DNA of 46,977 nt from a bacterium. Its GTDB lineage: Bacteria; CLD3; SB21. The translations under genes and the position numbers were made by a program. The notes under the pieces are model-generated. The model was not told where the DNA came from and did no database searches. It saw only the letters and a list, made by a program, of their open reading frames with translations. Location of the stretch: positions 1 through 46,977 of the forward strand of contig JAIBAF010000025.1 in the NCBI GenBank assembly GCA_019695335.1. The letters are read 5' to 3'. This document shows positions 2,284-45,024 of the stretch, in pieces (positions within the stretch are counted from its first letter, which is position 1; each line of letters starts with the position of its first letter).

Positions 2284-3186
2284 CTACCATTCGGCATACT
2301 GCGAATGTACGATGAGAGTTATGTCTTTACTATAGTAATTAATAGAACCAAAACAACCAAGGCCTCCGACTATATTTGAAGTCCGCTCCAAGCCATGATA
2401 ATCATAATTAAAATAATTCGTGCTTGCTTCATCATAAACCAGTATTTCTATTCGATCAGGCCGCGTCTCTGTAACTCCGACAATTTCAGGATAGCTTGAT
2501 GACCATATCCAATTTTTACCATAACCAGAGTTATTGCCGAAAATATTTAACGCATTTTCAAGTATTGATCCAGTCAGAGTATAGAGATCTGGATAGTAAT
2601 AAATTACTGAATCGGAATCCATAACGCTAATTTCCAGGTTCACAATACTAAATTGATAGGAAGCATTGACAGTCTTTTTCCAACTATATTTAATCGCAGA
2701 ATTCGTAACGCGTGAATCAATCGTTGAATATACTTCCGTATAATCAGTATCTACTTCTAAAAACACAATTAAACTGTCCATATTCACTGGCTCAGTCAAT
2801 TGTGGAGTTATGGGCACTGTAGTTTCAGCATAAACTTTTTCGTCATCAACCTCGACTGATAAAGAATATTTTTGTCCTTCGCTGATTCTAAGTTCAGAAT
2901 AAATGTCTTCATAGAGACCCGGGCGTTTCTCAGTCAATACAATTTGTTGTCCATTTCCTTCAATTATCACATGAGCCCCAGATATTCTTGTTTTCAACGA
3001 ATCACGGTTGTATACACCATCCAGATCATCGACATTGATTGCGTGATTGACAAATACTTGTGTTTTAAATTTGTGATTTAAAACACAATGCACTGAAATT
3101 AAATTAACCTTTTCAGGAAATGTAGGAACGTCCGAACAGGCCGCGATCAAGGTTACTATTGTGCTCCAAAAAAACAAATTTCTCAC
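2284..3186 (-). CDS. DUF4249-type outer-membrane-associated lipoprotein
   Basis: This 300-residue protein starts with a lipoprotein signal peptide: a hydrophobic stretch followed by the lipobox LIAACSD, with the acylated Cys near residue 17. The mature part is a beta-rich domain with the layout of the DUF4249 family: an early VNHAINVDDLDG-like strand region, then an Ig-like section (EGQKYSLSVEVDDEKVYAETTVP). Known DUF4249 proteins are encoded directly after STN-containing TonB-dependent receptors and are thought to be surface lipoproteins cooperating in substrate capture; the substrate is not known. Here the gene follows the receptor by only 17 nt, as last gene of the sigma/FecR operon. The family assignment rests on sequence feel and context. 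The role as a receptor partner is inferred. Confidence 0.75.
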   Translation of the reverse strand: MRNLFFWSTIVTLIAACSDVPTFPEKVNLISVHCVLNHKFKTQVFVNHAINVDDLDGVYNRDSLKTRISGAHVIIEGNGQQIVLTEKRPGLYEDIYSELRISEGQKYSLSVEVDDEKVYAETTVPITPQLTEPVNMDSLIVFLEVDTDYTEVYSTIDSRVTNSAIKYSWKKTVNASYQFSIVNLEISVMDSDSVIYYYPDLYTLTGSILENALNIFGNNSGYGKNWIWSSSYPEIVGVTETRPDRIEILVYDEASTNYFNYDYHGLERTSNIVGGLGCFGSINYYSKDITLIVHSQYAEW

Positions 3187-3203: not shown

Positions 3204-5924
3204 TTAAAATTCAAAATGAGCGCCAAATGAAGGAACTATCGGAATACCAAAACTACGACGCTTTGCATAAGTAGTTGATAGAATATATCCTTCAGGCGTC
3301 TGAAAAGATTTGACCGTTTCTTTAACGTCGTAATACAACGGATTATTCTTGTAATAGCTATTAACGATATTGATGTAAGGTTTCAGCGTCCATTTCTTAT
3401 AAATTATCGTTTTTATAAAACTAACGTCTAACCTATGATAAATCGGCATACGCCCGTAAATATTAACATGATCAATTTCTGTTCCTTCCGCATTGTCAAC
3501 ATACTCAGACGCAGTAACTCGATCATTCGAAAAATAGCCATTCAAAAAAAATTGTTCTGTAGCAAATTGTGCGGGTCTGTATGCTCTTCCGCTATTAAAT
3601 GTCCATCTGAAATCCAGCGACCAGTTTTTGGGCAGTTTATAACTACCTAAAAAGGATAACGTATGGCGTTGATCATACGGAGTAAAATATTCTATACCTT
3701 CAAATTTTCTTTTAGTCCACGCGAGAGAATAAGCCGCTTCATAACTGAATCGACTACCGATTTTTTTCCAGATGAGTTCGAGACCGTAAGCATAACCCTC
3801 TCCGAAAACAAAAATCGGGGAAATGGCTGTTGAACGCCGGTTTTTAGCCATTCTGTATAACTTTTTATAATAAACTTCTCCTGAAAATCGGGTACGTATA
3901 TCCGGATAATATTCGGCTCCGGCAATGTAGTGAATCGATTTCTGCAATCGGTCACCAGCCGTTGAGAATGGAATTTCCAATAGCCCGATATATCCTTTCT
4001 CGCGCGAATTAAAATGAGACTGATAATAAACTCCGGTTGCAGCTTTTAACGCAATCTGATCATTATATTCATACCGAGCAGCTACACGCGGGCTGATAGC
4101 TGTCTTAGGAGATGATTGATCAAATTTTTCAATTCGCAATCCAGGCTTGATAATGAACCGATTATCGATATTCCATAGGTCTTCTATGTAGAAACTATAG
4201 TTATTTAGAAGGCGGTGGTAGGTAAATGAGTCCGGTGCAACATCAAAAAAAACTTCATACGTTTCCGTTCTGTTGAAGTCCATATTGTCCCAAAAATAAG
4301 AAAGAATTTGCCGGTTGTATTCAGCACCCAAAAGGAATTTATGGTTCTTGATTAATTCAAGTTCAATATCCCATTTAATGGTTTTGTCGTTTATTTGATT
4401 GTTTGTATAAAGCGGATGTTGATCTTCATTAGTATTAATGCTAGCAACTAAGTGACGAATGGAATCTGATGCTTGTTCGTCATAGCGAAATACTTTGTCC
4501 TGATCCATGTCAGTTGTAGCTATGGACTGATAGGCTGTAATAGTCGATATAAGCCAATCTTTCTTAAATTGCCAGTTCGCAGTAAAGTTATAGTTGTGCC
4601 ATGAATAATCATTAATTCTTCTGAATTCGTAATGAAGGTCTTCACGAACAAAGGCTCCGGTTTGATTAAAATATTCTTTATAAAATTTCCTGGTGTTCGT
4701 TTTTTGATAGAAATCACCAGATAAGAAACCAGACACGCTGAATTGGTTTGTTTCGTTTGGACTAAATATAACTTTCCCATAAAGGTCAGAGAAATTGTAT
4801 GGAACAGACTCTCCGACCAGTCCAAGTGTTTTCGTAAGCTTGCTCGCTTTATCCAAATAGGTTCTTCGTCCGGAAACCAAATAATACCATTGATCATTCA
4901 GACGACCGTCGAGAGTCAGCTTGGAACTCAATAAACTCAATGTTCCCGTGCCAGAAAATTTATCTTTCGCATTCGATTTGGTACGAACATCGATTACCGA
5001 GCTTAAACGGTTTCCATATTGAGAAGAAAATCCTCCCGCTGAAAAATTCACTTCATCAATGATATCGGTATTAAAAATTCCGGCAATACCAAACATGTGG
5101 TACGGCTGATAGATCACTGCCCGATCCAGCATTATCAGGTTTTGATCCGGCGTCCCTCCACGTACAAACAACTCACTGGTAATGTCATTAGGCGCTGTTA
5201 TACCCGGTAATGTTTGCATGGCCCTAAATAAATCCGGCTCGAGCACGCCCGGTGTGTTCGTTATCTTCTTTCGATCCAAAATAATGACACTTGGTTGGAT
5301 CCTCAATTTTTCGTCAGAGATACGTAGCGGATCTTTCTCGCCAGTGATAACAATATTTTCTCCTTCAAATATTTTAGGTGTCAGGCGGATCGTGTCTAAA
5401 TCTAACAACGGTTGAAATAACGAAATCGAACGTAATTCATATTCGTAGCCAATCACAGTTATTCTAAGATAATAATTGCCGTAAGGAATATGTTTGAGTG
5501 TAAAGTCTCCGGATGAATTGGAATATGTTCCCCAACCGGTACTGTCGATTAACAGATTGGCATACGACAGAGGCTCTGATGTTTTACCATCTACGACTAT
5601 ACCATTGATAGAACCGACCTCCGCACCGCGTCCTTTTTTGGCATCACGGAACAGATAAACATGTTTGCCTTCAATTGTAAAATTGATTTCAGTCTTTAAC
5701 AGAATTTCGTGCAAGGCCTTCTCAAGGTTATTGGCTTGAACCCTCGCCGAAATCTGATATTCATCAAGCGACTGGTCTACGAAAGAAAAACTAACGTGAA
5801 ATTTTGATTCTAAATCTTTTACTACTTCATTGAGAGGAACCTGGTTATAGTTCAGAACCATTTCCTGAGAATAAAGTTCTGAAAAACGGAATAAAATAAA
5901 AAAAACAAAAAACCGACTAACCAT
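3204..5924 (-). CDS. TonB-dependent outer-membrane receptor with N-terminal STN signalling domain
   Basis: A 906-residue FecA-like transducer. A signal peptide (about 1-19) is followed by an STN domain (about 23-92, with LESKFHVSFSFVDQ), a carboxypeptidase-regulatory-like beta sandwich (about 104-185, GSINGIVVDGKTSEPLSYAN), a plug domain (about 195-310, with LFVRGGTPDQNLIMLD and GGFSSQYGNRLSSVIDVRT) and a 22-strand-type barrel ending in an aromatic residue (GAHFEF). Receptors of this class import a ligand with energy from TonB and use the periplasmic STN domain to signal to FecR, which controls the ECF sigma factor. Those two partners are encoded upstream in the same operon. The SD sequence GGAG lies 3 nt before the ATG, just after the stop of the second micro-ORF. 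The ligand cannot be told from the sequence: there is no siderophore-synthesis or glycan-degradation gene nearby. Confidence 0.93.
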   Translation of the reverse strand: MVSRFFVFFILFRFSELYSQEMVLNYNQVPLNEVVKDLESKFHVSFSFVDQSLDEYQISARVQANNLEKALHEILLKTEINFTIEGKHVYLFRDAKKGRGAEVGSINGIVVDGKTSEPLSYANLLIDSTGWGTYSNSSGDFTLKHIPYGNYYLRITVIGYEYELRSISLFQPLLDLDTIRLTPKIFEGENIVITGEKDPLRISDEKLRIQPSVIILDRKKITNTPGVLEPDLFRAMQTLPGITAPNDITSELFVRGGTPDQNLIMLDRAVIYQPYHMFGIAGIFNTDIIDEVNFSAGGFSSQYGNRLSSVIDVRTKSNAKDKFSGTGTLSLLSSKLTLDGRLNDQWYYLVSGRRTYLDKASKLTKTLGLVGESVPYNFSDLYGKVIFSPNETNQFSVSGFLSGDFYQKTNTRKFYKEYFNQTGAFVREDLHYEFRRINDYSWHNYNFTANWQFKKDWLISTITAYQSIATTDMDQDKVFRYDEQASDSIRHLVASINTNEDQHPLYTNNQINDKTIKWDIELELIKNHKFLLGAEYNRQILSYFWDNMDFNRTETYEVFFDVAPDSFTYHRLLNNYSFYIEDLWNIDNRFIIKPGLRIEKFDQSSPKTAISPRVAARYEYNDQIALKAATGVYYQSHFNSREKGYIGLLEIPFSTAGDRLQKSIHYIAGAEYYPDIRTRFSGEVYYKKLYRMAKNRRSTAISPIFVFGEGYAYGLELIWKKIGSRFSYEAAYSLAWTKRKFEGIEYFTPYDQRHTLSFLGSYKLPKNWSLDFRWTFNSGRAYRPAQFATEQFFLNGYFSNDRVTASEYVDNAEGTEIDHVNIYGRMPIYHRLDVSFIKTIIYKKWTLKPYINIVNSYYKNNPLYYDVKETVKSFQTPEGYILSTTYAKRRSFGIPIVPSFGAHFEF

Positions 5925-6129: not shown

Positions 6130-7677
6130 CTATATTCTGATGCCAACTAAATATCCCCACCAACCTCTGACGAACGTGTTTTTCCGATCATAAACGTAGA
6201 CTTTTCCTCTTGAAAGAACGTCGCCATTGTTATGGCGCGAAATCCAGACATTCGCTGAAACGCCTCCGTAAAGAGCAAAATGATCATTGATTTTAAAACT
6301 CGGCGTCAGCTTAATATTATTGAGTAAATTTACGCGTCTCTCCCACAGGCGATTTTCATGCAGTTGGTGTGTCATAACGTCGAGATTGACTTCAACCATT
6401 TTGTAATTGTAAATCACACCTCCTACACCAATACCGACCGACCAGCGCGGAGGATTGTCGAAGCGATGGACTCCAACATCATAAATAGTGTAAAAATATT
6501 TCGTACCGTGCCTGTAGGCCAAATGCGTAAACTTGGATTCATTCATACTCGCTTCGAAATGATGCTGCCCGTTTTTAATAAAATTAAGCAATCCAATCGC
6601 GGCCACAGTATTGTCATCCGAAAAATTGACCAAACCAACTTGAATGCCTTTCACTTTTTTTCCAAAGTTGAACAACCCGACCTGAACACCCGTCGTTAAT
6701 TCAGATTGATTAACCGCAGCTAATTGAAGCCCGCTAACAGTTTTTGAGCGGTTAAAAAGTACTCCGATCTGAGCGCCGTTAGCATTTACAGAATTCAAGT
6801 TAACGCCTCCGATTTGTCCCCCCGTCACGTTTTTTGCCGTGTTGGCGCTTCCGATTTGGATGCCGGATAATTTTTCAGTAGCATTGTATCCACCCGCAAT
6901 TTGCAATCCACTTACCTGTAATGAATTAACATTGGCGCCTCCGCTGATTTGTAATCCATGCATGTATGTCTGCGCCGAATTACCTCCAAGCGCAATTTGA
7001 AAACCTTTAACAAAAGTTCTGTTAAAATTGCCGATTAATCCAATTTCAATTCCTTCCAGACCGATCGACTCGTGGGAAATCATATTCATCGAAAAGTTAT
7101 GAATTGTCGGACCGGAAAACGGGTAGTTAGTGTTTAATTGGTTCCACAACGAGAAATGGAAAAAATGTTTGGGGCTTTCAAAATGTTGGTTGCCGGGTAT
7201 TACATTGATCTGTTCTTTTATCAAAACATCATCAGCATCATCGGCATTAGCCAACTGTTGAAAAGAGGAGGTATCGATAGAATCTTTGCCGTCTTTTGAC
7301 AATACTGAATCCGGCAACGTCACTATTTGTGAAGAATGCGCATCGATCAAACTTCCTTTGATCTCGTTTTTAAATTCAGTTGCAGGCTTTATCTTCGAAC
7401 TATCCTGAAAAAGCAATATGTTCTTATCGTCAAGAATGGTATACGAAATCGGAACTTTCAGTAAAATTTCGTCTAAAGCCGATTTTACTCCTCGGGCAGT
7501 TTGAGGCGAATGCACTAAAACATTGTCAATCCATTGATCAACATAGGAAAACTTCACTTTATACTGACTTTCCAGTTCCTGCAATACTGAGTGCAGCTTT
7601 CTTGTTTCCTGCGCATTTTGCATACTCATGAGAGTACAGGACATTAACATGAATATTGGTATTATTTTGTATTTCAT
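6130..7677 (-). CDS. STN domain fused to LA_2272-like surface repeats
   Basis: This 515-residue exported protein has a signal peptide (1 to about 22), then an STN domain (about 27-92) clearly related to that of the neighbouring receptor (LESQYKVKFSYVDQ here, LESKFHVSFSFVDQ there). A low-complexity acidic linker follows. Residues about 206-370 hold roughly eleven units of 14-16 residues with the pattern xxGxQIGxxNxxxx (for example SGIQIGSANTAKN, TGVQVGLFNFGKK, KGIQVGLVNFSDD), as in LA_2272-type surface-repeat proteins. The C-terminal 145 residues are beta-rich and may complete a membrane barrel. STN domains usually sit on TonB receptors or secretins; here there is no plug. The gene lies 14 nt after fecR and has an AGGAT SD. 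I infer an outer-membrane protein able to contact FecR. Ligand and function are unknown. Confidence 0.75.
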   Translation of the reverse strand: MKYKIIPIFMLMSCTLMSMQNAQETRKLHSVLQELESQYKVKFSYVDQWIDNVLVHSPQTARGVKSALDEILLKVPISYTILDDKNILLFQDSSKIKPATEFKNEIKGSLIDAHSSQIVTLPDSVLSKDGKDSIDTSSFQQLANADDADDVLIKEQINVIPGNQHFESPKHFFHFSLWNQLNTNYPFSGPTIHNFSMNMISHESIGLEGIEIGLIGNFNRTFVKGFQIALGGNSAQTYMHGLQISGGANVNSLQVSGLQIAGGYNATEKLSGIQIGSANTAKNVTGGQIGGVNLNSVNANGAQIGVLFNRSKTVSGLQLAAVNQSELTTGVQVGLFNFGKKVKGIQVGLVNFSDDNTVAAIGLLNFIKNGQHHFEASMNESKFTHLAYRHGTKYFYTIYDVGVHRFDNPPRWSVGIGVGGVIYNYKMVEVNLDVMTHQLHENRLWERRVNLLNNIKLTPSFKINDHFALYGGVSANVWISRHNNGDVLSRGKVYVYDRKNTFVRGWWGYLVGIRI

Positions 7678-7691
7678 ATGATCCTATGCGG

Positions 7692-8657
7692 TTAATAAAC
7701 TGTGTACATCGAGTCATTGACAGCTTGATATTTCATCCCCGCTGTCAGGCAAATCACATTTAAAGCTTTTTGCACGGACGATCGGTCGATACGCCCTGTA
7801 AAAGTCAATTCATTACCTTTCGATATCGATATCTGAACGTCAAATTGTCTCTCAATTTCTTTTATGACATTGTGCAAAGGCTCGCGTTCAAAATACATTT
7901 CACCGATCATCCAGTTAATTTTCTTTCTTGAGTCGATCGCAAAAGGCTCCTCTGGAGATAAACCTTTATGAACTAAGGTCGCTAGGCCAGGGGTAAGAAC
8001 TACTGACGCTGAATCCGATGCTGTCACGCTGACTTTTCCTGTCAAACACGCTACTTCTACTTTTCCATCGCGTGAACGGATATTGAAAGTCGTTCCTAAA
8101 ACTTTAGTTACTACTCCTTCCGAATTAACCTCAAACGGGATTTTATCTTTAATTACGCTGAAATAAGCTTCACCCGATAAAATCACTTCACGTTTTTTGC
8201 TCCATGCGTTTTTTTGATAACTCAGTGATGAACCGGCATTGAGAGTTACTTCGGAGCGATCCGGAAGTGTTATAGTTTTTTGTTCACCTTTCATAGCAAA
8301 TTCGATAATGGTTTGTTCACGGTTGATCCACAAATATGATCCGATCATAAGTACTACGGCTGCAGCAACAGCAATGGCTTGCCATCGATGACGTAATGCG
8401 GCGGTCGCTGTTTGCTTCTTCTCATTAAAGAATAACCGTCGGCTTATATTTTCCCAGCGCTGATCCCGGCTTAAAGCTTTTCTCATCGGCAATTGACCGG
8501 TCATTTGCCATACTTTTTGCAGATCATCAAAAAACTGTTTCTCTTCAGGATGTGCCTCAATCCACTTATTGAATTCAGTTAATTCATCACCCTGAACGGC
8601 TCCGGATATCCACCGAGCTATAAACACATCATCATGATAATTTTCAAGAGTTTCCAT
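7692..8657 (-). CDS. fecR: FecR-family anti-sigma / sigma regulator
   Basis: The protein has 321 residues from the ATG at 8657. A GTG six bases upstream is possible, but the SD-like GCGGGTGA sits 2-5 nt before the ATG and overlaps that GTG. Residues 1-90 are a cytoplasmic helical domain that should bind the sigma factor (FNKWIEAHPEEKQFFDDLQ). A transmembrane helix follows at about 93-111 (AIAVAAAVVLMIGSYLW). The periplasmic FecR beta domain spans about 115-215 (FAMKGEQKTITLPDRSEVTL, GEAYFSVIKDKIPFEV, VLGTTFNIRSRDGKVEVACL). The C-terminal DUF4974/STN-like domain reads FEREPLHNVIKEIERQFDVQI. In characterised systems FecR relays the ligand state of the receptor to the ECF sigma factor. This gene follows the sigma gene by about 97 nt and precedes the two STN proteins, giving one complete signalling unit. 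Confidence 0.93.
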   Translation of the reverse strand: METLENYHDDVFIARWISGAVQGDELTEFNKWIEAHPEEKQFFDDLQKVWQMTGQLPMRKALSRDQRWENISRRLFFNEKKQTATAALRHRWQAIAVAAAVVLMIGSYLWINREQTIIEFAMKGEQKTITLPDRSEVTLNAGSSLSYQKNAWSKKREVILSGEAYFSVIKDKIPFEVNSEGVVTKVLGTTFNIRSRDGKVEVACLTGKVSVTASDSASVVLTPGLATLVHKGLSPEEPFAIDSRKKINWMIGEMYFEREPLHNVIKEIERQFDVQISISKGNELTFTGRIDRSSVQKALNVICLTAGMKYQAVNDSMYTVY

Positions 8658-8692
8658 AATCACCCGCTTTACGTTATAGGGATCTCGTCTTG

Positions 8693-8754: not shown

Positions 8755-9300
8755 TTATTTTTTTAAAAAAGGCTGTAGACACGCCCTGAGGAGTTTCAAA
8801 GCTTTTCCAATGTGGGATTCAACAGTTTTAATGCTGATACTGAGCCGTTCGGTAATTTCCTTGTAGGAAAGATCATCAATCCGGCTTAACATAAAAACTG
8901 TTCGGGGATGTTCGGGTAAAGCGGCAATACAATTAAAAACAGCCTGACGATATTCTTTGGTTTCGAGCAGCGATTGAGGGGACTCGGATGTAAAAGCTTC
9001 TTCATCCTGTGCCGTATATTTTAAGACAACTTTCCGGTGCCTGATAAAATTTAAACAAAGATTATTAGCGATAGTGTATACATACGATTTGAGAGACAAG
9101 CCATCTTTTAATTGATGCCGCGTTTCCCAGAGATTAATAAATGTATCCTGTAAAATATCTTCCGCTGCTTCCGAGTCCCCGATTTTGTAGCAAATAAAAT
9201 TGTATATAGATTCTTCGTACAAATCGAAAAACTCTTTAAACGCTAACCGGTCGGAAGCGCGGATTCTTTGTATAAATTCAGGAAGAATTTCAGAAGCCAT
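8755..9300 (-). CDS. ECF-type RNA polymerase sigma factor (FecI-like)
   Basis: A 181-residue two-domain ECF sigma factor. Region 2 lies at about 15-80 (FKEFFDLYEESIYNFICYKI, then EAAEDILQDTFINLWE) and region 4 at about 120-175 (LPEHPRTVFMLSRIDDLSYK, then the helix-turn-helix ERLSISIKTVESHIGKALK). It redirects RNA polymerase to its own promoters and is held in check by the FecR encoded next. The start is supported by an AGAGG SD 4 nt upstream. A sigma-70-like promoter (TTGATT-N17-TATATT) ends about 27 nt before the ATG, so the operon may be expressed by the housekeeping sigma as well as, or instead of, by autoregulation. Length and motif order are normal for the family. Confidence 0.95.
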   Translation of the reverse strand: MASEILPEFIQRIRASDRLAFKEFFDLYEESIYNFICYKIGDSEAAEDILQDTFINLWETRHQLKDGLSLKSYVYTIANNLCLNFIRHRKVVLKYTAQDEEAFTSESPQSLLETKEYRQAVFNCIAALPEHPRTVFMLSRIDDLSYKEITERLSISIKTVESHIGKALKLLRACLQPFLKK

Positions 9301-35520: not shown

Positions 35521-37137
35521 CTACATCCGTTTCAACCAAACTTTATTAAATTTCCGGACTGAACTGGAATGCAATTGGAAATCCATGACATTTTCCTTCA
35601 TGGGGACAATCGTCACGGAATGGGCGATGGTGAACCAAGGAAGATCTTTATTAAAAACCTCGCATGCTTTTTTATAAATACTGCTGCGTTCGACCGGATC
35701 GGATGTTGCTTTACCTTTGAGAATCAATTGATGCATGGCTTCGCCGGTGTAAAATGCCGCATTGGTCGAAGGTTTGCGTTCGGCAATGCTCTTATCAAGA
35801 AGCGGATAAAAGAAAAAATGAGGATCGGGCGCATCGCCTACCCAGCCGGCAATCGTCAGATCGTGTTCGCCATTACCGCGGCGACGGAGAAATTCATCCC
35901 AAGAATACATGACGATATCGGTTTCAATACCAACTTCTTTAAGATCGGCCTGAATGATTTCCGCCGCCAGTTTGCCGTTAGGCATGTATTCGCGTACGAT
36001 TGGCATTGTCCACAAGGAACATTTGAAGCCGTTCGGCAATCCCGCTTCGGCCAGTAATTGTCTGGCTTTGGCCGGATCATGCAATGTAAACCGAATTTCT
36101 TCGTTATATCCGAGCACGCTGGGCGGAATCGGATTTTTCGCAGAGCGTCCGAGTTGAGCAAAAACTTTTTCGACCAATTTATCGCGATCGATTGCCAACA
36201 CGATGGCCTCGCGTACTTTCGGATTGTCAAAAGGTTTTTTACTAGTATTCATAGCGAGATAAGAAATATTCAATCCGGGTTGTTTCGAATATTTGATGCC
36301 CGCCGTGTTTTCAATTTCAGTAATATCGGATTGATCCGGTACGCCCATCATATTGATCGCACCGGATTTCAACATTTGCCATCGTTGTTTAGCGTCAGGA
36401 ATCGGCTTAAAAATCAGCGTATCGATAAACGGCCGCCCTCCCCAAAATTGTTCGTTGGCTAGTGTGACAACATTCCCGCTCGCATCCCACTCGAGAAACC
36501 GGAATGCGCCTGTTCCGACGGGATTTTTCGAAAAATCTTTGCCGTATTTTTTCAACGCATCCGGACTGACCATCCCGAGAAAATTCAGCGTCAGAATATT
36601 CAAAAATGTTGCATCGGGCTCATTTAAAACAAATTCAACGGTGGAATCATTAATTGCGTGAATGGACTTAATGATTTTGTCCATATTAAAATTTTTCCAG
36701 TAATCGTAATCGAGATCTTTGAAGTGGGAAGGATGTTTGGGATCGCGCTGCCTGTCAAAATTATACACGACGGCATCGGCATTGAATGGCGTTCCATCAT
36801 GAAACGTCACACTTGTCCTCAGGCTAAACGTGTACGTTTTTCCATCGTCCGAAACTTTCCATGATTTCGCCAGAGCCGGATCGATGGCGACTTTTCCGGC
36901 TCTTTGTTCGACTAAACCGTCAAAAATATTGACCACAATAATCGATGATTCTGTTTCCCGTGTGAATGCGGGATCGAGCGTGAGAGGCGGTCCGTTTTTT
37001 CCGTAAATGATCGTCCCGCCATACTGAGGTTTCGAAGAATCGATAGTTCCGTTCGTACGTTGATTCGATTTTCCACACGAACATAACAATAATACAATAC
37101 ATGCAGCCAGCCACGGCTTACGTTGAAATCGTTTCAT
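35521..37137 (-). CDS. Peptide-binding lipoprotein, SBP family 5 (tandem copy 4)
   Basis: A 538-residue periplasmic solute-binding protein of the DppA/OppA type with a lipoprotein signal (IVLLLCSCGKSNQ). Shared family stretches are YGGTIIYGKNGPPLTLDPAF, AKSWKVSDDGKTYTFSLRTS, VTFHDGTPFNADAVVYNFDR, NPVGTGAFRFLEWD and KPFDNPKVREAIVLAIDRDK. Its IAGWVGDAPDPHFFF segment keeps the Trp-x-x-Asp that in OppA/DppA holds the alpha-amino group of the peptide, so peptides are the likely ligand. Such proteins deliver to an ABC permease, but none is encoded nearby. It is the last of four paralogues in a row and closest to the copy at 37240-38850, with which it shares PDPHFFFYPLLDKS. AAGGAACG before the ATG serves as SD. 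Confidence 0.93.
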   Translation of the reverse strand: MKRFQRKPWLAACIVLLLCSCGKSNQRTNGTIDSSKPQYGGTIIYGKNGPPLTLDPAFTRETESSIIVVNIFDGLVEQRAGKVAIDPALAKSWKVSDDGKTYTFSLRTSVTFHDGTPFNADAVVYNFDRQRDPKHPSHFKDLDYDYWKNFNMDKIIKSIHAINDSTVEFVLNEPDATFLNILTLNFLGMVSPDALKKYGKDFSKNPVGTGAFRFLEWDASGNVVTLANEQFWGGRPFIDTLIFKPIPDAKQRWQMLKSGAINMMGVPDQSDITEIENTAGIKYSKQPGLNISYLAMNTSKKPFDNPKVREAIVLAIDRDKLVEKVFAQLGRSAKNPIPPSVLGYNEEIRFTLHDPAKARQLLAEAGLPNGFKCSLWTMPIVREYMPNGKLAAEIIQADLKEVGIETDIVMYSWDEFLRRRGNGEHDLTIAGWVGDAPDPHFFFYPLLDKSIAERKPSTNAAFYTGEAMHQLILKGKATSDPVERSSIYKKACEVFNKDLPWFTIAHSVTIVPMKENVMDFQLHSSSVRKFNKVWLKRM

Positions 37138-37239
37138 GATCGTTCCTTATGTGTATATCTAAGATAGTGTGTGTATCTAAACGACTAAAACAATTGAATA
37201 CTCATTCAAAAAAAATCCAATGGCTGACGACATAGCCAA

Positions 37240-38850
37240 CTATTTCTTAAGCCAGACTTTATCGAATTTTCTTACTGAGCTGGCATGCATGAGATAATTC
37301 ATGACATTGTCACGCATAGGCAATATAGCCACAGCATGATCGATCGTGAACCATGGAAGATCACGATTAAACACTTCACACGCCTTTTTATAAATATTGC
37401 TTCGTTCCAACGGATCGAATGTTTCCTTACCTTTGACGATCAATTCATGCATTTCTTCGCTCTTGTAAAATGCCGCATTATTCGAAGGGCGCTGTTCCGC
37501 ACTGGATTTATCGAGCAGCGGATAGAAAAAGAAATGCGGATCGGGAACATCGCCGACCCATCCTGAAATGATCAGATCATGCTCGCCGTTACCGCGGCGC
37601 AGAAGATATTCTTCAAAATTAGGAATAGAAATTTCTGTTTCAATACCGACGGCTTTCAAATCCGCCTGAACCATTTCTGCGGCCAATTTACCATTCGGCA
37701 TATATTCACGCGTAACGGGAAGCGTCCATAAGGCACACTTAAATCCATTAGGGAAACCTGCCTCAGCCAAAAGTTGTTTGGCTTTTTCAGGATCATGCGG
37801 TGTAAAACGAATCTCATCATTGTATCCGAGTAAATTCGGAGGAATGGGATTTTTGGCCGGACGTCCCATTTGCGAAAGGACGGTCTTAACGAGTTTTTCA
37901 CGGTCAATCGCATACACAATCGCTTGGCGCACTTTTAAATTATCAAATGGCTTCTTATTCATGTTCATCGCCATGTAGGCAACATTGACGCCGGGCTGCT
38001 GAGAAACTTTAACGCCGGCGGTATTTTGAATTTCGTCGATATCAGCCAGATCCGGAACGCTCATCATGCTCACTGTTCCGGCTTTGAGCGCTTGCCAACG
38101 CTGACGGGCATCCGGAATCGGTTTAAAAATCAACGTGTCTACATACGGTTTGCCATTCCAGTATTGATCGTTAGCAATAGTCACCACACTTCCATCATTG
38201 TTCCAACTGACAAATTTAAATGCGCCCGTACCAACCGGATTTTTATAAGCATCGGCGCCGTATTTTTTCATTGCGCTTGGGCTGACAATCTGCAGAAAAT
38301 TCATCGATAAAATATTTAAAAATGTTGCATCCGGGCTCGTCAGGTTAAATTCAACGGTAGAATCATTCAACGCCTTAATGCTCTTGATGATATTGTCCAT
38401 ATTGAAACTGCGCCAGAAATCAAAATCGGCTTTGCCGTGAAAAGGATGTTTTGGATTGCCTTGACGCTCAAAGGAAAATAAAACGGCATCGGCATTAAAC
38501 GGCGAACCGTCATGGAAAGTAACGTCCGTACGCAAGTGAAACGTGTATATCATACCATTGGTCGAGATATCCCAGGATTTGGCGAGACAAGGATCGATGG
38601 CGATCTTGCCGGCACGTTGCTGCACCAAGGCATCAAAAATATTATCAACAATGACCGTCGATTCCGTTTCTTTGGTCAATGCCGGATCTAACGTCAGCGG
38701 AGGACCGTTTTTCGCATAAATGAATGTACCGCCATATTGAGGCTTGGATTCATCCGACGTGGATTCTTTACGTTGATCCGATTTTCCACAGGCAATCATC
38801 ATTACCATCGTACCAACGATAAGCCATGAGATAGGGTTAAGGAATTTCAT
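37240..38850 (-). CDS. Peptide-binding lipoprotein, SBP family 5 (tandem copy 3)
   Basis: A 536-residue paralogue of its neighbours. The lipoprotein signal ends in MVMMIACGKSDQ. Core motifs are YGGTFIYAKNGPPLTLDPAL, TKETESTVIVDNIFDALVQQ, VTFHDGSPFNADAVLFSFER, NPVGTGAFKFVSWN and KPFDNLKVRQAIVYAIDREK. The ligand Asp is kept in ISGWVGDVPDPHFFF. The protein should be anchored by its lipid in the inner or outer membrane, facing the periplasm. An AAGGATAAGCTT stretch gives an SD for the ATG. It is 102 nt from copy 4 and 41 nt from copy 2, consistent with one transcript. It shares a subgroup with copy 4 by the PHFFFYP signature. Confidence 0.93.
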   Translation of the reverse strand: MKFLNPISWLIVGTMVMMIACGKSDQRKESTSDESKPQYGGTFIYAKNGPPLTLDPALTKETESTVIVDNIFDALVQQRAGKIAIDPCLAKSWDISTNGMIYTFHLRTDVTFHDGSPFNADAVLFSFERQGNPKHPFHGKADFDFWRSFNMDNIIKSIKALNDSTVEFNLTSPDATFLNILSMNFLQIVSPSAMKKYGADAYKNPVGTGAFKFVSWNNDGSVVTIANDQYWNGKPYVDTLIFKPIPDARQRWQALKAGTVSMMSVPDLADIDEIQNTAGVKVSQQPGVNVAYMAMNMNKKPFDNLKVRQAIVYAIDREKLVKTVLSQMGRPAKNPIPPNLLGYNDEIRFTPHDPEKAKQLLAEAGFPNGFKCALWTLPVTREYMPNGKLAAEMVQADLKAVGIETEISIPNFEEYLLRRGNGEHDLIISGWVGDVPDPHFFFYPLLDKSSAEQRPSNNAAFYKSEEMHELIVKGKETFDPLERSNIYKKACEVFNRDLPWFTIDHAVAILPMRDNVMNYLMHASSVRKFDKVWLKK

Positions 38851-38891
38851 AAGCTTATCCTTTTTATTTTTAGTTCGAAAAGATTAAAACC

Positions 38892-40484
38892 TTATTTTTT
38901 TAACCACAATTTATTGAACTTTCTTACCGACGTTGAATGCAATTGAAAATCCATGACCATCTCTTTCATCGGAACGATGGTTACGGAATGCGCGATGGTA
39001 AACCAAGGTAGATCGCGGTTGAACACTTCGCATGCTTTTTTATACGCATTGCTGCGTTCCAGTGCATCGGCCGTAGATTTACCGGTTAAGATCAACTGAT
39101 GCATTTCATTATCCGAATAAAATGCAATGTTCGAGGATGGAAGTTTTTCTGCAACGGATTTATCTAACAAGGGATAGAAAAAATTATCCGGATCCGGTAC
39201 ATCGGCAACCCACCCAATGATAGCCATGTCGTGTTGCCCGCCGTAAGTTTTTTCAAGATATTCACTCCACGGAAAAGTCTGAATGGTCACTTCGATACCG
39301 ACATCTTTAAGATATTTTTGTATCAACGTGGCGGCTTTGGACGGATCGGGCATGTATTCACGCGTCAATGGCATCGTCCATAACGTCGTTTTGAACCCGT
39401 TGGGAAAACCGGCGTCGGTAAGTAATTGACGCGCTTTGGCCGGATCGTACGGCGTCGGACGGATTTCGTCATTGTAACCGATCAACATCGGCGGAATTGG
39501 ATTTTTCGCCGACCGCCCGAAGGCTTTAAAAACTTCCTCCACTAATTTCTCTCGGTCAATTGCCAAAACTATTGCCTGACGAACCCGCGCGTCTGTAAAC
39601 GGTTTTTTCTTCATGTTCATGGCAAGGTAGGAGATGTTCAAACCTGGCTGTTTTGAAAACTTAATTCCCGGCGTTTTTTCTATTTCCGCCATGTCCGTTT
39701 CGCTCGGAGCCGCCATCATATCGATGGCGCCGGCTTTGAGCAGTTCCCACCGCTGATGCGCATCAGGAACTGACCGCATTACTAGCGTATCAATATACGG
39801 GCGACCATTCCAATAATTGCCATTGGCCAACAAAACGATATCGCCATCATCATTCCAACTCGCGAACCGGAAAGGACCTGTTCCGACCGGATGTTTATAG
39901 AAATCTTTTCCGTACTGTTGAAGCGCCGAAGGACTGACGATCAGACACACGTGATGGGAGAGAATATTCAAAAAAGTTGCATCCGGATTATTCAATGTGA
40001 TTTCGACGGTGGAATCATTGATCGCACGGAGGAATTTGATGAGTTTCGTCATTTCAAATCCTTTCCATGAAGAGTAATCGGCATCCTTCCAGTAAAAAGG
40101 ATGTTTGGGATTACCTTGCCGCTCGAAGCTAAAAATAACGGCTGCAGCCGTAAGCGGTTCGCCGTTATGAAACGTGACGCCGGAGCGAAGATGGAAAGTA
40201 TACACTAAGCCGTCCTTGGAAATTTCCCAAGAGTGGGCCAAACCGGGATCAATGGCTGTTTTACCCGCGCGTTGCGCGACCAAGCCGTCGAATAAGTTCG
40301 CCAGGACGACGGACGATTCGGTTTCTTTGGTCAGCGCAGGATCGAGCGTCAATGGAGGGCCGCTTTTTGCATAAATCAACGTGCCGCCGTATTGAGGTTT
40401 GATTTCGCCGGTCAATTCCTTCTTGTCGGATTTTCCGCACGCTATCAAAATCAGGCCGCACGTCAGGGTCAGGATATAACGCAT
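38892..40484 (-). CDS. Peptide-binding lipoprotein, SBP family 5 (tandem copy 2)
   Basis: I set the start at the ATG 40484 (530 residues), which has the SD GAGGTG at 4 nt and begins directly with the signal peptide (MRYILTLTCGLILIACGKSD). A further ATG at 40517 would add 11 polar residues before the signal and lacks an SD. Motifs are YGGTLIYAKSGPPLTLDPAL, AHSWEISKDGLVYTFHLRSG, VTFHNGEPLTAAAVIFSFER, HPVGTGPFRFASWN and KPFTDARVRQAIVLAIDREK. The IIGWVADVPDPDNFF segment holds the ligand Asp and resembles classical DppA more than copies 3 and 4 do. Its upstream spacer carries the hairpin at 40506-40538. Confidence 0.93.
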   Translation of the reverse strand: MRYILTLTCGLILIACGKSDKKELTGEIKPQYGGTLIYAKSGPPLTLDPALTKETESSVVLANLFDGLVAQRAGKTAIDPGLAHSWEISKDGLVYTFHLRSGVTFHNGEPLTAAAVIFSFERQGNPKHPFYWKDADYSSWKGFEMTKLIKFLRAINDSTVEITLNNPDATFLNILSHHVCLIVSPSALQQYGKDFYKHPVGTGPFRFASWNDDGDIVLLANGNYWNGRPYIDTLVMRSVPDAHQRWELLKAGAIDMMAAPSETDMAEIEKTPGIKFSKQPGLNISYLAMNMKKKPFTDARVRQAIVLAIDREKLVEEVFKAFGRSAKNPIPPMLIGYNDEIRPTPYDPAKARQLLTDAGFPNGFKTTLWTMPLTREYMPDPSKAATLIQKYLKDVGIEVTIQTFPWSEYLEKTYGGQHDMAIIGWVADVPDPDNFFYPLLDKSVAEKLPSSNIAFYSDNEMHQLILTGKSTADALERSNAYKKACEVFNRDLPWFTIAHSVTIVPMKEMVMDFQLHSTSVRKFNKLWLKK

Positions 40485-40505
40485 GATGCACCTCGTGTGT
40501 TGTGG

Positions 40506-40538
40506 ACGCAGCATCATGACACAATCATGTCACTGCGT
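40506..40538. promoter_or_regulatory. Two-step hairpin between peptide-binding copies 1 and 2
   Basis: The outer arms ACGCAG (40506-40511) and CTGCGT (40533-40538) and the inner arms TGACA (40517-40521) and TGTCA (40528-40532) form a hairpin with a 5-nt bulge. A T-run lies only on the plus-strand side (40549-40554). On the coding minus strand it could be a processing or attenuation element 22 nt before the start of copy 2. Confidence 0.35.
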
Positions 40539-40596
40539 TGCAGGAGTCTTTTTTATCATTCAGTTAGTCTTTCAAATGTATTTGTGGTTAAAATTT

Positions 40597-42201
40597 TTAC
40601 TTATTGAGCCATACGTGATTAAATTTACGCGCATAGCTGGCATACGGCTGAAAATTCATCACGTATGACTGCATCGGCACAATCACGACCGAATGCGCAA
40701 TAATAAACCATGGTAAATCTTTATTAAAAACGGCACAAGCATCGCGATAGACTTTCGCCCGCTCAACCTGATCGGAAGTGGCTTTACCTTTTGTGAGCAA
40801 ACGATACATTTCATCGGACTTATAAAACGCAATATTGTTAGATGGATAGATTTCTGCAACTTTTTTGTCGAGCAGCGTGAAAAAATTATCCGGATCCGGA
40901 ATATCGGCAATCCAACCCATTACAGCCAGATCGTGTTCGCCACGGTAAATACGTTCAAGATAATCGTTCCATGGATACGTAACAATTTCGGTTTCTACGC
41001 CAATTTGTTTCAAATCGTTTTGAATCATGGATGCCGTTTTTTGTCCGTCCGGCATGTATTCACGGGAGATCGGCATAGTCCATAATTTTAATTTAAGGCC
41101 ATTGGCATAGCCGGCTTCCGCCAAAAGTTTTTTCGCTTTTTCAGGATCGTATGGCGTGGGGCGAATTTCATCATTGTATCCCAAAATCATCGGAGGAATC
41201 GGGTTTTTAGCAGGCCGTCCGAATTCACCATAAACTTCACTCACTAATTTTTCACGATTAATACCGTAAACGATCGCTTGTCGCACCCGTAAATCGCTGA
41301 ACAATTTTTTGTTCATGTTCATCGCCAGATAAGCAATATTGACGCCCGGCTGTTTGAACGTTTTGAATTTCGTATTTTTTTCAATTTCCTTCATGCGATC
41401 AGGTCCTGGCGATTCGATCATGTCGAATTCGCCATTCATGAGCTTTTGATAACGCTCTTCGTGTTGATCGACGGCTTTAAAAACGAGCTTATCCAAATAA
41501 GGTTTCCCATCCCAGTAATCGGCATTGGCTTCGAGCGTCAATGTACCGTCCGAATCCCATTTGACGAATTTAAACGCGCCCGTACCGACGGGATTTTGTG
41601 AAAAATTTTCTCCGTATTTTTCCATAGCGGTCGGACTCACGATCGCTGTAAACAACATGCTTAAAATATACAAAAATGTTGCGTTGGGTTCGCGCAACGT
41701 AAAAACTACCGTTGAATCGTCGGATGCCTTGATGTCATTGACAATATCGTTCATGCTGAAATTTTTCCAATATTCGAATTTGTCGGCCGGACGATGATGC
41801 GGGTGTTTTACGTCCCGTTGGCGGTCAAAACTAAAAAGCACCGCTTGGGCATTGAAAGGAGTACCGTCATGAAAATTCACGCCGGTACGCAAATGGAATG
41901 TATAAGTCAGGCCGTCTTTGGAAATATCCCACGAACGTGCAAGAGCAGGCGCGATGCCGGTCGTGCCAAGTTTCAGTTGCACCAAAGGATCGAATATATT
42001 GTCGCATGGAATGGTCGATTCGGTTTCAGCCGTCAGCGCCGGATCCAATGTTGCCGGAGGATTGTTTTTAGCATACACGAGCGTCCCGCCGTACTTGGGT
42101 TTTAACTCGCCTTCATTTTTCGCATTATCACCGGATTTACCGCAACCTATGGCTAAAATCAGGGTTAACAAAAACACAAAACCGTAATGTTTGATCAGCA
42201 T
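40597..42201 (-). CDS. Peptide-binding lipoprotein, SBP family 5 (tandem copy 1)
   Basis: The first of the four paralogues in transcription order, 534 residues, with lipobox LILAIGCGKSGD. Motifs are YGGTLVYAKNNPPATLDPAL, ARSWDISKDGLTYTFHLRTG, VNFHDGTPFNAQAVLFSFDR, NPVGTGAFKFVKWD and KLFSDLRVRQAIVYGINREK. The ligand-binding Asp is present in VMGWIADIPDPDNFF. It differs from the others by KLGTTGIAPALARSW where they have RAGKxAIDPxLAxSW, so it is probably the most divergent copy. GAAGGAG lies 10 nt before the ATG. It starts 57 nt after the 921-residue unknown gene, which may belong to the same transcript. Confidence 0.93.
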   Translation of the reverse strand: MLIKHYGFVFLLTLILAIGCGKSGDNAKNEGELKPKYGGTLVYAKNNPPATLDPALTAETESTIPCDNIFDPLVQLKLGTTGIAPALARSWDISKDGLTYTFHLRTGVNFHDGTPFNAQAVLFSFDRQRDVKHPHHRPADKFEYWKNFSMNDIVNDIKASDDSTVVFTLREPNATFLYILSMLFTAIVSPTAMEKYGENFSQNPVGTGAFKFVKWDSDGTLTLEANADYWDGKPYLDKLVFKAVDQHEERYQKLMNGEFDMIESPGPDRMKEIEKNTKFKTFKQPGVNIAYLAMNMNKKLFSDLRVRQAIVYGINREKLVSEVYGEFGRPAKNPIPPMILGYNDEIRPTPYDPEKAKKLLAEAGYANGLKLKLWTMPISREYMPDGQKTASMIQNDLKQIGVETEIVTYPWNDYLERIYRGEHDLAVMGWIADIPDPDNFFTLLDKKVAEIYPSNNIAFYKSDEMYRLLTKGKATSDQVERAKVYRDACAVFNKDLPWFIIAHSVVIVPMQSYVMNFQPYASYARKFNHVWLNK

Positions 42202-42258: not shown

Positions 42259-45024
42259 CTATGAAGCGTATTGCAATGTATACGGCGATAGCTGACTTGC
42301 CATCTCAAAACGGATACGCGCATAATCTAAAATCTCGTGATTTTCAATGGCCTGTTCTTTAAGGCCGTCGGCGGCAATTACATATTTATTTGTAGCAAGC
42401 GCTTCTTTAATAAACGTCATGGAACTGAACGTTTCGGAAACGATACTTTGCAGTGTAATGGCATAAAACACGCGATACAACGTCGCTTTGTCTAAGTTGA
42501 AAACTTCTCTGCGTGCGGGCTCGAGATAATCCGGAAATTTATCCGGCACGATCGTATACGTTTTTTCAGCTTCTTCGCCTGTTTCAGGATCGATCATCGG
42601 CTTGCCCGATTTATCTTTTTTGATAACCTTCACGTCGACTTTCCCGTATTTGCCGTTAAAACAATCGCGGCAAATCGAATCCAACGGTAAAGGCTCACGT
42701 GATGCTTGCAGTCCCAAATCACATTTCAAGCGTTCGACCAATTGTTTGATGCCAAGCTCGACCTTGAGTTCGTTGCTGCGAAGTTTTGTAGAACTATAAC
42801 TCAGCAGTGCAATGGCCTCATCGGTCAGTCGATTAATTTTTTGTAAGTTTTGAAGTTCCTCGCGGCTGGTTTGATTAATGAACGCAAGCAGTTGCTCACG
42901 CGTTTCAACTTGTTTTCTAAGCGTATGCACGTCGATATTTTCACGAGCTTCTTTATATTCGTATTGTTCGAGAATGCGTTTTGCATCGATATTTTTAATG
43001 CTGCGCAGCAATTCATTTTGAGTCAATTTAATGAGCGAACGTTTACCCGTACGCTTTAATTCATACACTTCCATATCCCAGCCGGATGCCAGGAATTGTG
43101 CGATGAGAATACTCCGGATTTTTTCATATTTTGCGTAATAAGCAACGGGAAATTCTCCGCGATTTTCCATATCGCGCTTGGCATGTTCTTCTTCATCGCT
43201 TAAAAGATCAAGAAATTTATCATCGACGATTTTGTATACTTTGCTTCGCAAGTCCATCCGAGCTGCATCCAATTCTTTATCATGATCGGCTTTCGCAAGA
43301 ATATAATCGAATAACACTTCTTCATCGATCAAACGCAATGACAGTTGCAGTTCGCGGTTGTTGATTACGTGATAGAGAATGATCCATTGTTCGTCAAGCG
43401 AACGGTCTTTGAGAGGCGTTCGTTTTTCTTTTTCAGGTACTTCTAAATTTTGACGGTCAAATCCGTTGTAATGCAGCGTTTCTTTTCCGGCGTGCGTGCC
43501 GTCATATTCGTACCGCAATTTTTTGATTTCCCGATACAAATTGATGCGCCGAGTAAAACTGTAGGTGAGAGAAAGTCGTCCGGCGAGAATTTTGATAATT
43601 TGATCCGGCATTACATCGCCTAATTCCTGTGTCAGCATCGCCGCAATATAAAATGACATGATCGCCGACGCGTGGCGGCGTTCCGCAGCACGCTCGATAA
43701 ACATTTCGTGGATCAGCGGAAGTTCGGACTGATTGACCATGAACGTCCGGAACTGTTCTTCAATGGGTTCAAATCCTTCAAGCGTCGTGGTATTGGTCAT
43801 GATGCGGTTTAGAAAAAATCGCACTTCAAGATCCGGCACGCGCTGGCGGTACTGGCTTGGTAAATTATTCATCACGGCCTGTCCGTTGATCGTTTCAACG
43901 TCGGCTTTGATGTTGTTGCAAAACATTTTCAAAATGACTTCATTCATTTTAATTTGCGTGTTCGGAGCCAGGAGTAGTTTACCGAGCGCATACATGACAA
44001 AATGTTTGATTTTCGGCGTGTAATCTTTGATCATGGCCAAAGCAGGTTCAAAGAGTTGTTCGTTCTTCGTATCGCGCATGATTTTTTGAAGCCGCTTTTC
44101 ATCAAAGTAATAATAAACCAGACCTTCGAGGACTTCATACGCTGTAAGTTCGGCTATAACTTTGCGTTTGGCGTTTTCCGAAAGCGCTTCTCCCTTTTGC
44201 TTTTCAACAAGACTGATCGTTTTTTTGATTTCTATCGCAAGCGCTTCATCGGCTTTTTTGATCTCCTTTTGCATGGAGTTCTGATTTCTAAGGCTAGTGG
44301 AAAAATCGTACAGGCCGGGCAATACCGTTTCCGCCTCACCGACTTCCTTCAAACGATCGTATAGAAAATCGATAATATAATCCGAGTATCCGTACGACTC
44401 AACAGATTCGCGGATGATTTCTTTAAAGAACACGGGGTAAACGTACTGATCCAGATCCAGTTTACCGCCCCATCCGTCGTTGAGTTTTTTATAACCTTCA
44501 AGATAAATATTATCACAAAACCCTGAAAAATGATGGATCAACCGGACCATGCTGCCAACGTCGTTTTTCGATTTAATAAAATCTGTGTAAATTCTCATCA
44601 TTCTCGAAAACCGGTCGACGTCGTCATCGGCTTCCATAAAAGGTTTGAAAATCTGAAAAACCGCTTCCATCGCATTGCGGAAATGATCGATGAATTCCTC
44701 GCCCGATGGCAATTCCAACATTTCATCTTTAAATATCAGCCCGTCGATTGCGTCAACATCGAAACCCTGTTCCGTCAGAAAATCAAACAGTTTCATGTAC
44801 ATCATGCGATGCGTAATAAAAAACGACGGGAGAGAATTGAAACCCTTCCGGATATCTTTGTTCTCTTCGAGCGTGATCAAAATATTCATCAGCGATTTTA
44901 GTGCGGCTTTGCTGTTGGATTCGCTGATCGGCAATACCCGGTTCAATCCGCTGATATAGTTGTCGTAAACTGCTTTAGTGCTGTCGTCGACGCCGACAGT
45001 TAAAATATGTTTGGTATCAATCAT
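42259..45024 (-). CDS. Large cytoplasmic protein of unknown family
   Basis: A 921-residue open frame with normal composition that I cannot assign. It has no signal peptide or membrane helix. The sequence is highly charged and appears mostly alpha-helical, with Lys/Glu-rich stretches suggesting coiled coil around 275-310 (KKADEALAIEIKKTISLVEK) and 680-750 (QVETREQLLAFINQ, LQNLQKINRLTDEAIALL). A single CxxC (Cys785-Arg-Asp-Cys788) occurs in DSICRDCFNGKYG, followed by a basic insertion (KVIKKDKSGKPMIDPETGEE). No nucleotide-binding or catalytic signature is evident. It lies 40 nt after the acyl-CoA ligase and 57 nt before the peptide-binding genes, on the same strand, so cotranscription is likely. 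No SD is visible before the ATG. Function unknown; it may be a scaffold. Confidence 0.85.
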   Translation of the reverse strand: MIDTKHILTVGVDDSTKAVYDNYISGLNRVLPISESNSKAALKSLMNILITLEENKDIRKGFNSLPSFFITHRMMYMKLFDFLTEQGFDVDAIDGLIFKDEMLELPSGEEFIDHFRNAMEAVFQIFKPFMEADDDVDRFSRMMRIYTDFIKSKNDVGSMVRLIHHFSGFCDNIYLEGYKKLNDGWGGKLDLDQYVYPVFFKEIIRESVESYGYSDYIIDFLYDRLKEVGEAETVLPGLYDFSTSLRNQNSMQKEIKKADEALAIEIKKTISLVEKQKGEALSENAKRKVIAELTAYEVLEGLVYYYFDEKRLQKIMRDTKNEQLFEPALAMIKDYTPKIKHFVMYALGKLLLAPNTQIKMNEVILKMFCNNIKADVETINGQAVMNNLPSQYRQRVPDLEVRFFLNRIMTNTTTLEGFEPIEEQFRTFMVNQSELPLIHEMFIERAAERRHASAIMSFYIAAMLTQELGDVMPDQIIKILAGRLSLTYSFTRRINLYREIKKLRYEYDGTHAGKETLHYNGFDRQNLEVPEKEKRTPLKDRSLDEQWIILYHVINNRELQLSLRLIDEEVLFDYILAKADHDKELDAARMDLRSKVYKIVDDKFLDLLSDEEEHAKRDMENRGEFPVAYYAKYEKIRSILIAQFLASGWDMEVYELKRTGKRSLIKLTQNELLRSIKNIDAKRILEQYEYKEARENIDVHTLRKQVETREQLLAFINQTSREELQNLQKINRLTDEAIALLSYSSTKLRSNELKVELGIKQLVERLKCDLGLQASREPLPLDSICRDCFNGKYGKVDVKVIKKDKSGKPMIDPETGEEAEKTYTIVPDKFPDYLEPARREVFNLDKATLYRVFYAITLQSIVSETFSSMTFIKEALATNKYVIAADGLKEQAIENHEILDYARIRFEMASQLSPYTLQYAS

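Follow-up and report, generated by a model that had tools for sequence, protein, structure and literature searches.

In the literature cited here, signalling through FecR-type anti-sigma factors is a property of TonB-dependent receptors, which act as importers and signallers at once, and the two activities are hard to separate experimentally (PMC9249621). In Pseudomonas, the STN domain of PupB binds and stabilises the two-part periplasmic region of PupR, the C-terminal part of which is itself an STN (PMC7186176), and the STN of FoxA binds FoxR without the signal, shielding FoxR from proteolysis (PMC11637429). In the 46,977-nucleotide stretch of bacterial DNA analyzed here (contig JAIBAF010000025.1 of assembly GCA_019695335.1; hereafter the window), one gene encodes a protein that, like FecA, PupB, FoxA and the SusC proteins of ECF/anti-sigma-controlled loci, has an N-terminal STN and adjoins genes for an ECF sigma factor and a FecR-type protein. 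Unlike the STN-bearing TonB-dependent transducers, this protein (hereafter STN-LA, as are its relatives) has an LA_2272 repeat domain and neither a plug nor a TonB-receptor barrel; the other STN protein of the window operon belongs to that classical transducer type. Secretins (PilQ, GspD) are also outer-membrane-related proteins that carry an STN-type domain N-terminally, and PilQ appeared as a weak profile match, but STN-LA proteins carry no secretin domain and are linked to sigma and fecR genes rather than to an operon for secretion or pili. Within the LA_2272 family (NF047436), which includes the VC2662 family, VC2662 itself is described as hypothetical and uncharacterised, and the open-access literature yielded nothing on the combination of STN and LA_2272.

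The cluster lies on the minus strand (Table 1) in the order ECF sigma factor, FecR, STN-LA gene in third place, TonB-dependent receptor and DUF4249 gene, with 14 bp between the FecR and STN-LA genes and 205 bp between the STN-LA and receptor genes. The initial annotation had given the coordinates 6130-7677 and the length of the product correctly but not the strand, which is minus. A signal peptide was recognised by eye at the N-terminus of the 515-aa protein, and a promoter scan across the window operon returned matches at chance level only. Elsewhere in the window, four family 5 extracellular solute-binding proteins of 534-541 aa each are encoded in tandem (35521-42201, minus strand), adjoining the gene of a 921-aa protein without a Pfam match (42259-45024). 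In what follows the window's genome is G000, G003 and G006 are genomes of the same family, and G001 is of the same genus.

Table 1. Features of the STN-LA cluster, with positions in the window.
Feature	Position	Strand	Basis
STN-LA_2272 protein, 515 aa	6130..7677	minus	ORF coordinates, Pfam, NCBIfam, repeat count
STN domain, residues 25-92	7402..7605	minus	BLASTP 41% to receptor STN; hhalign 97.4%; HMM E 1e-17
S/D/K-rich linker, residues 93-172	7162..7401	minus	composition; AlphaFold pLDDT 24-34
Ten GxQ/GxE repeats (LA_2272 repeats), residues 209-351	6625..7053	minus	NCBIfam, motif count
Conserved C-terminal region, predicted all-beta, ending ..WWGYLVGIRI	6133..6624	minus	alignments, C-terminus survey
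FecR anti-sigma factor (FecR + FecR_C)	7692..8663	minus	Pfam; genome search
ECF sigma factor (TIGR02985)	8755..9300	minus	Pfam, NCBIfam
TonB-dependent receptor: STN (about 5664-5855), CarbopepD_reg, plug, barrel	3204..5924	minus	Pfam; HMM
DUF4249 protein, receptor partner	2284..3186	minus	Pfam; receptor-DUF4249 order also in G003, G001

The N-terminus of the window protein is confirmed as an STN domain. It had been annotated as closely resembling the STN of the receptor in the same operon, and BLASTP, run as one single comparison, bears this out with 41% identity over 66 aa (E 7e-16). Pfam is weak on the window protein itself (FecR_C, 13.8 bits, under the cut-off), while across the 20 STN-LA proteins of the survey described below Pfam STN matched in 16 at E ≤0.1, with a best E of 1e-8. 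In profile-profile comparison, the N-termini of these 20 proteins matched receptor STNs with 97.4% probability and the STN-like C-terminal domains of FecR proteins with 92%. A mixed STN profile of 14 rows (eight Bacteroidota STN-LA proteins, two from the window's family and four receptors) led to the anti-sigma structures 4m0n/4m0h (E 0.0015) and to the PupA signalling domain 2a02 (E 0.009), and an F-S-Y motif is conserved within the STN of STN-LA proteins. The fold proposed in the initial annotation is thus upheld by sequence profiles; an AlphaFold model of the full protein (five-row alignment) shows the expected order of helices and strands in the STN, but its mean pLDDT of 50 makes it too weak to count as evidence.

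Downstream of the linker, the motif G-x-[QE]-[ILVM]-[AGS]..N occurs in 10 copies between residues 209 and 344, every 14-16 aa, compared with a mean of 0.06 and a maximum of 2 in 2000 shuffles of the window protein. With one or two degenerate copies added, the "about eleven" repeats originally reported are a fair count. The NCBIfam model LA_2272_repeat (NF047436) scores 54 bits against a curated cut-off of 25, and the C-terminal region is common to LA proteins with and without an STN, as judged by alignments and a C-terminus survey, so that in both respects the protein resembles the STN-less members of its family. Pfam and NCBIfam gave no match to a plug, TonB-receptor barrel or secretin domain, and our receptor HMM did not match the protein, in agreement with the earlier description of repeats in place of plug and barrel. 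A CarbopepD_reg_2 domain stands between STN and repeats in 17 of the 20 STN-LA proteins overall, including most Bacteroidota members, and no CarbopepD_reg match was found in the linker region of the window or G003 proteins. Phenylalanine is the last residue in 13 of the 20, with hydrophobic alternation near the C-terminus, which fits outer-membrane insertion but does not prove it. An AlphaFold model of the LA domain (three-row alignment) is all-beta, with repeats at pLDDT of about 70-83 and an overall mean of 56; at mean pLDDT of 50 and 56, the models do not separate a beta-solenoid from a beta-barrel for the repeats, and Foldseek with these low-confidence models of the full protein and LA domain returned only non-significant PDB matches.

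Scanning named genomes with the single protein returned no relative, and viral contigs yielded nothing; a search with a two-row alignment returned one relative, from Membranihabitans, which became the starting point of a survey of the Bacteroidota. Of 395 genomes from the phylum to which Membranihabitans maritimus belongs (Bacteroidota), 87 contained a match to the LA domain at E 1e-12. Sixty loci were taken, and their predicted ORFs were scored with purpose-built HMMs for sigma, FecR, receptor, STN and LA; together with the window, G003 and Membranihabitans, they provide 20 STN-LA proteins and 43 loci in which every LA protein lacks an STN, most of the latter from one clade. Five of the 20 STN calls (L067, L073, L109, L113 and L119) rest on visual inspection, which showed clear N-terminal motifs.

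The architecture occurs in one further genome of the window's family and in at least 18 of the 395 Bacteroidota genomes, a count based on the stronger matches. A fecR gene is present in the cluster of 19 of the 20 STN-LA proteins, in contrast to none of the 43 STN-less loci (Fisher p 3e-15, with loci counted as independent though related). A sigma gene was detected in 18 of these 19 clusters (L073 being the exception), and fecR lies directly upstream on the same strand of 18 STN-LA genes, at gaps of -143 to +114 bp. The one protein without this linkage, an orphan with STN, CarbopepD and LA domains (L070:6112-7875, genome G376), has neither a sigma nor a fecR gene within about 6 kb, and its genome has nine FecR genes elsewhere. 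A held-out check, in which plasmids were searched by tblastn with one STN-LA protein as query, supports this linkage: it recovered two Persicobacter plasmids solely through protein similarity, each with the order sigma-FecR-STN-LA and a full-length relative, and a Hymenobacter LA protein from the same search has neither STN nor FecR. The initial annotation had asked whether STN plus LA_2272 sits beside fecR in other genomes; it does so almost without exception, and the combination is a real, recurring architecture of two phyla.

A genome-wide search found exactly one FecR (PF04773) in the window's genome, so the two surface STN proteins can share only that FecR as partner. The FecR_C/STN model matched this FecR, the operon receptor and a PilQ-like secretin encoded outside the sigma-fecR cluster, with the LA protein below the threshold of that model. 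One FecR with two STN-bearing surface proteins, as originally proposed, is therefore the layout present here, and it is seen only in the window's family, namely G000 and G003. In G003 the same set of genes is reordered (STN-LA, sigma, a small lipocalin-like gene, FecR, receptor, DUF4249), the receptor again bears an STN, and a second FecR-model match falls on a 227-aa frame that does not match FecR_C. The small lipocalin-like protein between sigma and fecR (L018:9256-9681) matches Pfam Lipocalin_4 under the cut-off. In G006, sigma, FecR and receptor are present and the LA protein was not found in the genome. The G001 contig begins inside a receptor gene, so absence of the LA protein cannot be claimed there; in this contig (L025:1-5664) the receptor-DUF4249 pair, single in the window, occurs twice in tandem.

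As a general design, the two-input proposal does not extend to the Bacteroidota, where the LA protein is usually the sole carrier of an STN. Unlike the STN-bearing TonB-dependent transducers, the Bacteroidota receptors alongside STN-LA have no STN: in seven loci (L069, L074, L099, L109, L113, L119 and L122) the downstream TonB receptor passes from its signal peptide directly to CarbopepD_reg, and a scan of eight receptors, including that of L073 upstream of its FecR, found an STN or FecR_C in 0/8 and a plug in 8/8. At nine further loci (L024, L067, L068, L071, L072, L079, L082, L087 and L088) a TonB receptor was not found in the stretch. Within these Bacteroidota loci FecR has the LA protein as its sole STN candidate, although further FecR systems elsewhere in the genomes make a distant STN receptor possible. 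A control set of 20 ordinary FecR loci from ten genomes had a receptor/SusC-sized gene (827-1212 aa) directly downstream in every case and an LA protein in none. Pairing of every Bacteroidota FecR with a non-receptor is ruled out by this control, and since its loci are all of receptor type, STN-LA represents the less common alternative to an STN receptor.

When 32 STN domains were placed in a tree, the LA-STNs of the window's family grouped with the receptor STNs of that family and two Bacteroidota receptors (100/99), and all 18 Bacteroidota LA-STNs fell on the other side with other (Bacteroidota) SusC STNs (100/99). A single LA-STN clade is rejected weakly (p 0.03, for a short domain with 85 tree columns and a group chosen after viewing the tree). 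Judged from these sequences, the STN was likely fused to LA domains on at least two occasions, or else swapped later within the operon.

With a probability of roughly 0.7, we read the STN-LA protein as a surface-signalling transducer for the neighbouring FecR rather than a TonB-dependent receptor. What places it in FecR signalling is an STN on an exported protein, encoded in a cluster with an ECF sigma factor and a FecR that bears an STN-like C-terminal domain. The STN would be exported to the periplasm and bind the STN-like C-terminal domain of FecR, and the LA_2272 repeat and C-terminal domain would lie in or on the outer membrane and sense a signal. A change in the LA domain would then alter the STN-FecR contact, leading to FecR cleavage and release of the ECF sigma factor; if PupB/PupR and FoxA/FoxR are a guide, FecR is probably shielded by this contact in the resting state, and signalling begins once the contact is lost. 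In the window's genome, the LA protein and the TonB receptor would share the single FecR. Because the Bacteroidota LA protein usually carries the only STN, our default reading is that of a replacement transducer. The LA protein is dispensable in G006, which counts against the transducer reading, as do the orphan L070 and the one-clade origin of most STN-less comparison loci. More tentatively, and with the odds slightly against it, STN-LA_2272 proteins may constitute a second, widespread class of FecR transducers that do not import, formed at least twice, having taken over signalling from a TonB receptor that is STN-less in several loci; in the window's family, one FecR would combine the input of such a sensor with that of a classical STN receptor.

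In P. aeruginosa, free STN domains, when overproduced, shield the anti-sigma factor and prevent signalling (PMC11637429), and the STN of the LA protein might similarly keep FecR protected while sensing nothing, thereby fixing the threshold that the TonB receptor must pass to signal. Such a decoy is conceivable for the window, as the receptors of G000 and G003 also bear an STN, but we consider it unlikely: the nine Bacteroidota loci without a nearby TonB receptor and the seven with an STN-less one offer nothing in the locus to decoy against, and a decoy needs no conserved repeat/C-terminal domain of 340 residues, yet that domain is retained. Slightly less probable still is that the LA protein is an output of the sigma factor, such as an adhesin or envelope protein, whose STN would serve assembly or oligomerisation, a role that STN-type domains have in secretins (PMC11637429), and not FecR signalling. 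Six STN-LA loci (L024, L067, L068, L072, L074 and L082) also encode STN-less LA proteins, and LA proteins may thus be targets of the system; however, among the surveyed loci the STN is found only on fecR-clustered LA proteins and the one orphan, LA proteins elsewhere manage without it, and the STN of the window protein has its nearest match in the receptor encoded in the same operon. This last resemblance, at 41% identity, makes duplication of the domain within the operon a plausible origin, and could be taken to mean that the STN is a remnant of a receptor gene stripped of plug and barrel, left beside fecR by a chance fusion or neighbourhood. The presence of the architecture in two phyla, its conserved F-S-Y motif, a probable separate origin and fecR linkage in 19/20 cases make a mere remnant very improbable.

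If the transducer reading holds, it suggests that a protein that is not an importer can sense the outside via FecR. An STN on a protein other than a TonB receptor, with the receptor absent or STN-less, would separate import from signalling, so that the contribution of import and TonB to signalling could be tested directly. It would also offer a first clue to the function of LA_2272 repeat proteins, a group common in Bacteroidota that otherwise lacks an explanation.

Two further observations concern the genomic context of LA proteins. Ten of the 20 STN-LA loci (L068, L069, L071-L074, L082, L087, L088 and L122) contain a gene for a DUF2807 (head GIN domain) protein, as against none of the 43 STN-less LA loci; in the distant genome G036 such a gene (L015:2140-3036) also comes after an LA gene that lacks the STN, and none was found in G000 or G003. 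The DUF2807 protein is a possible functional partner of LA proteins. In G036, which has four LA loci, the LA repeat/C-terminal domain is also fused to a caspase (Peptidase_C14) domain (L004:1498-3756); the LA domain is a reusable module that occurs with differing N-terminal domains.
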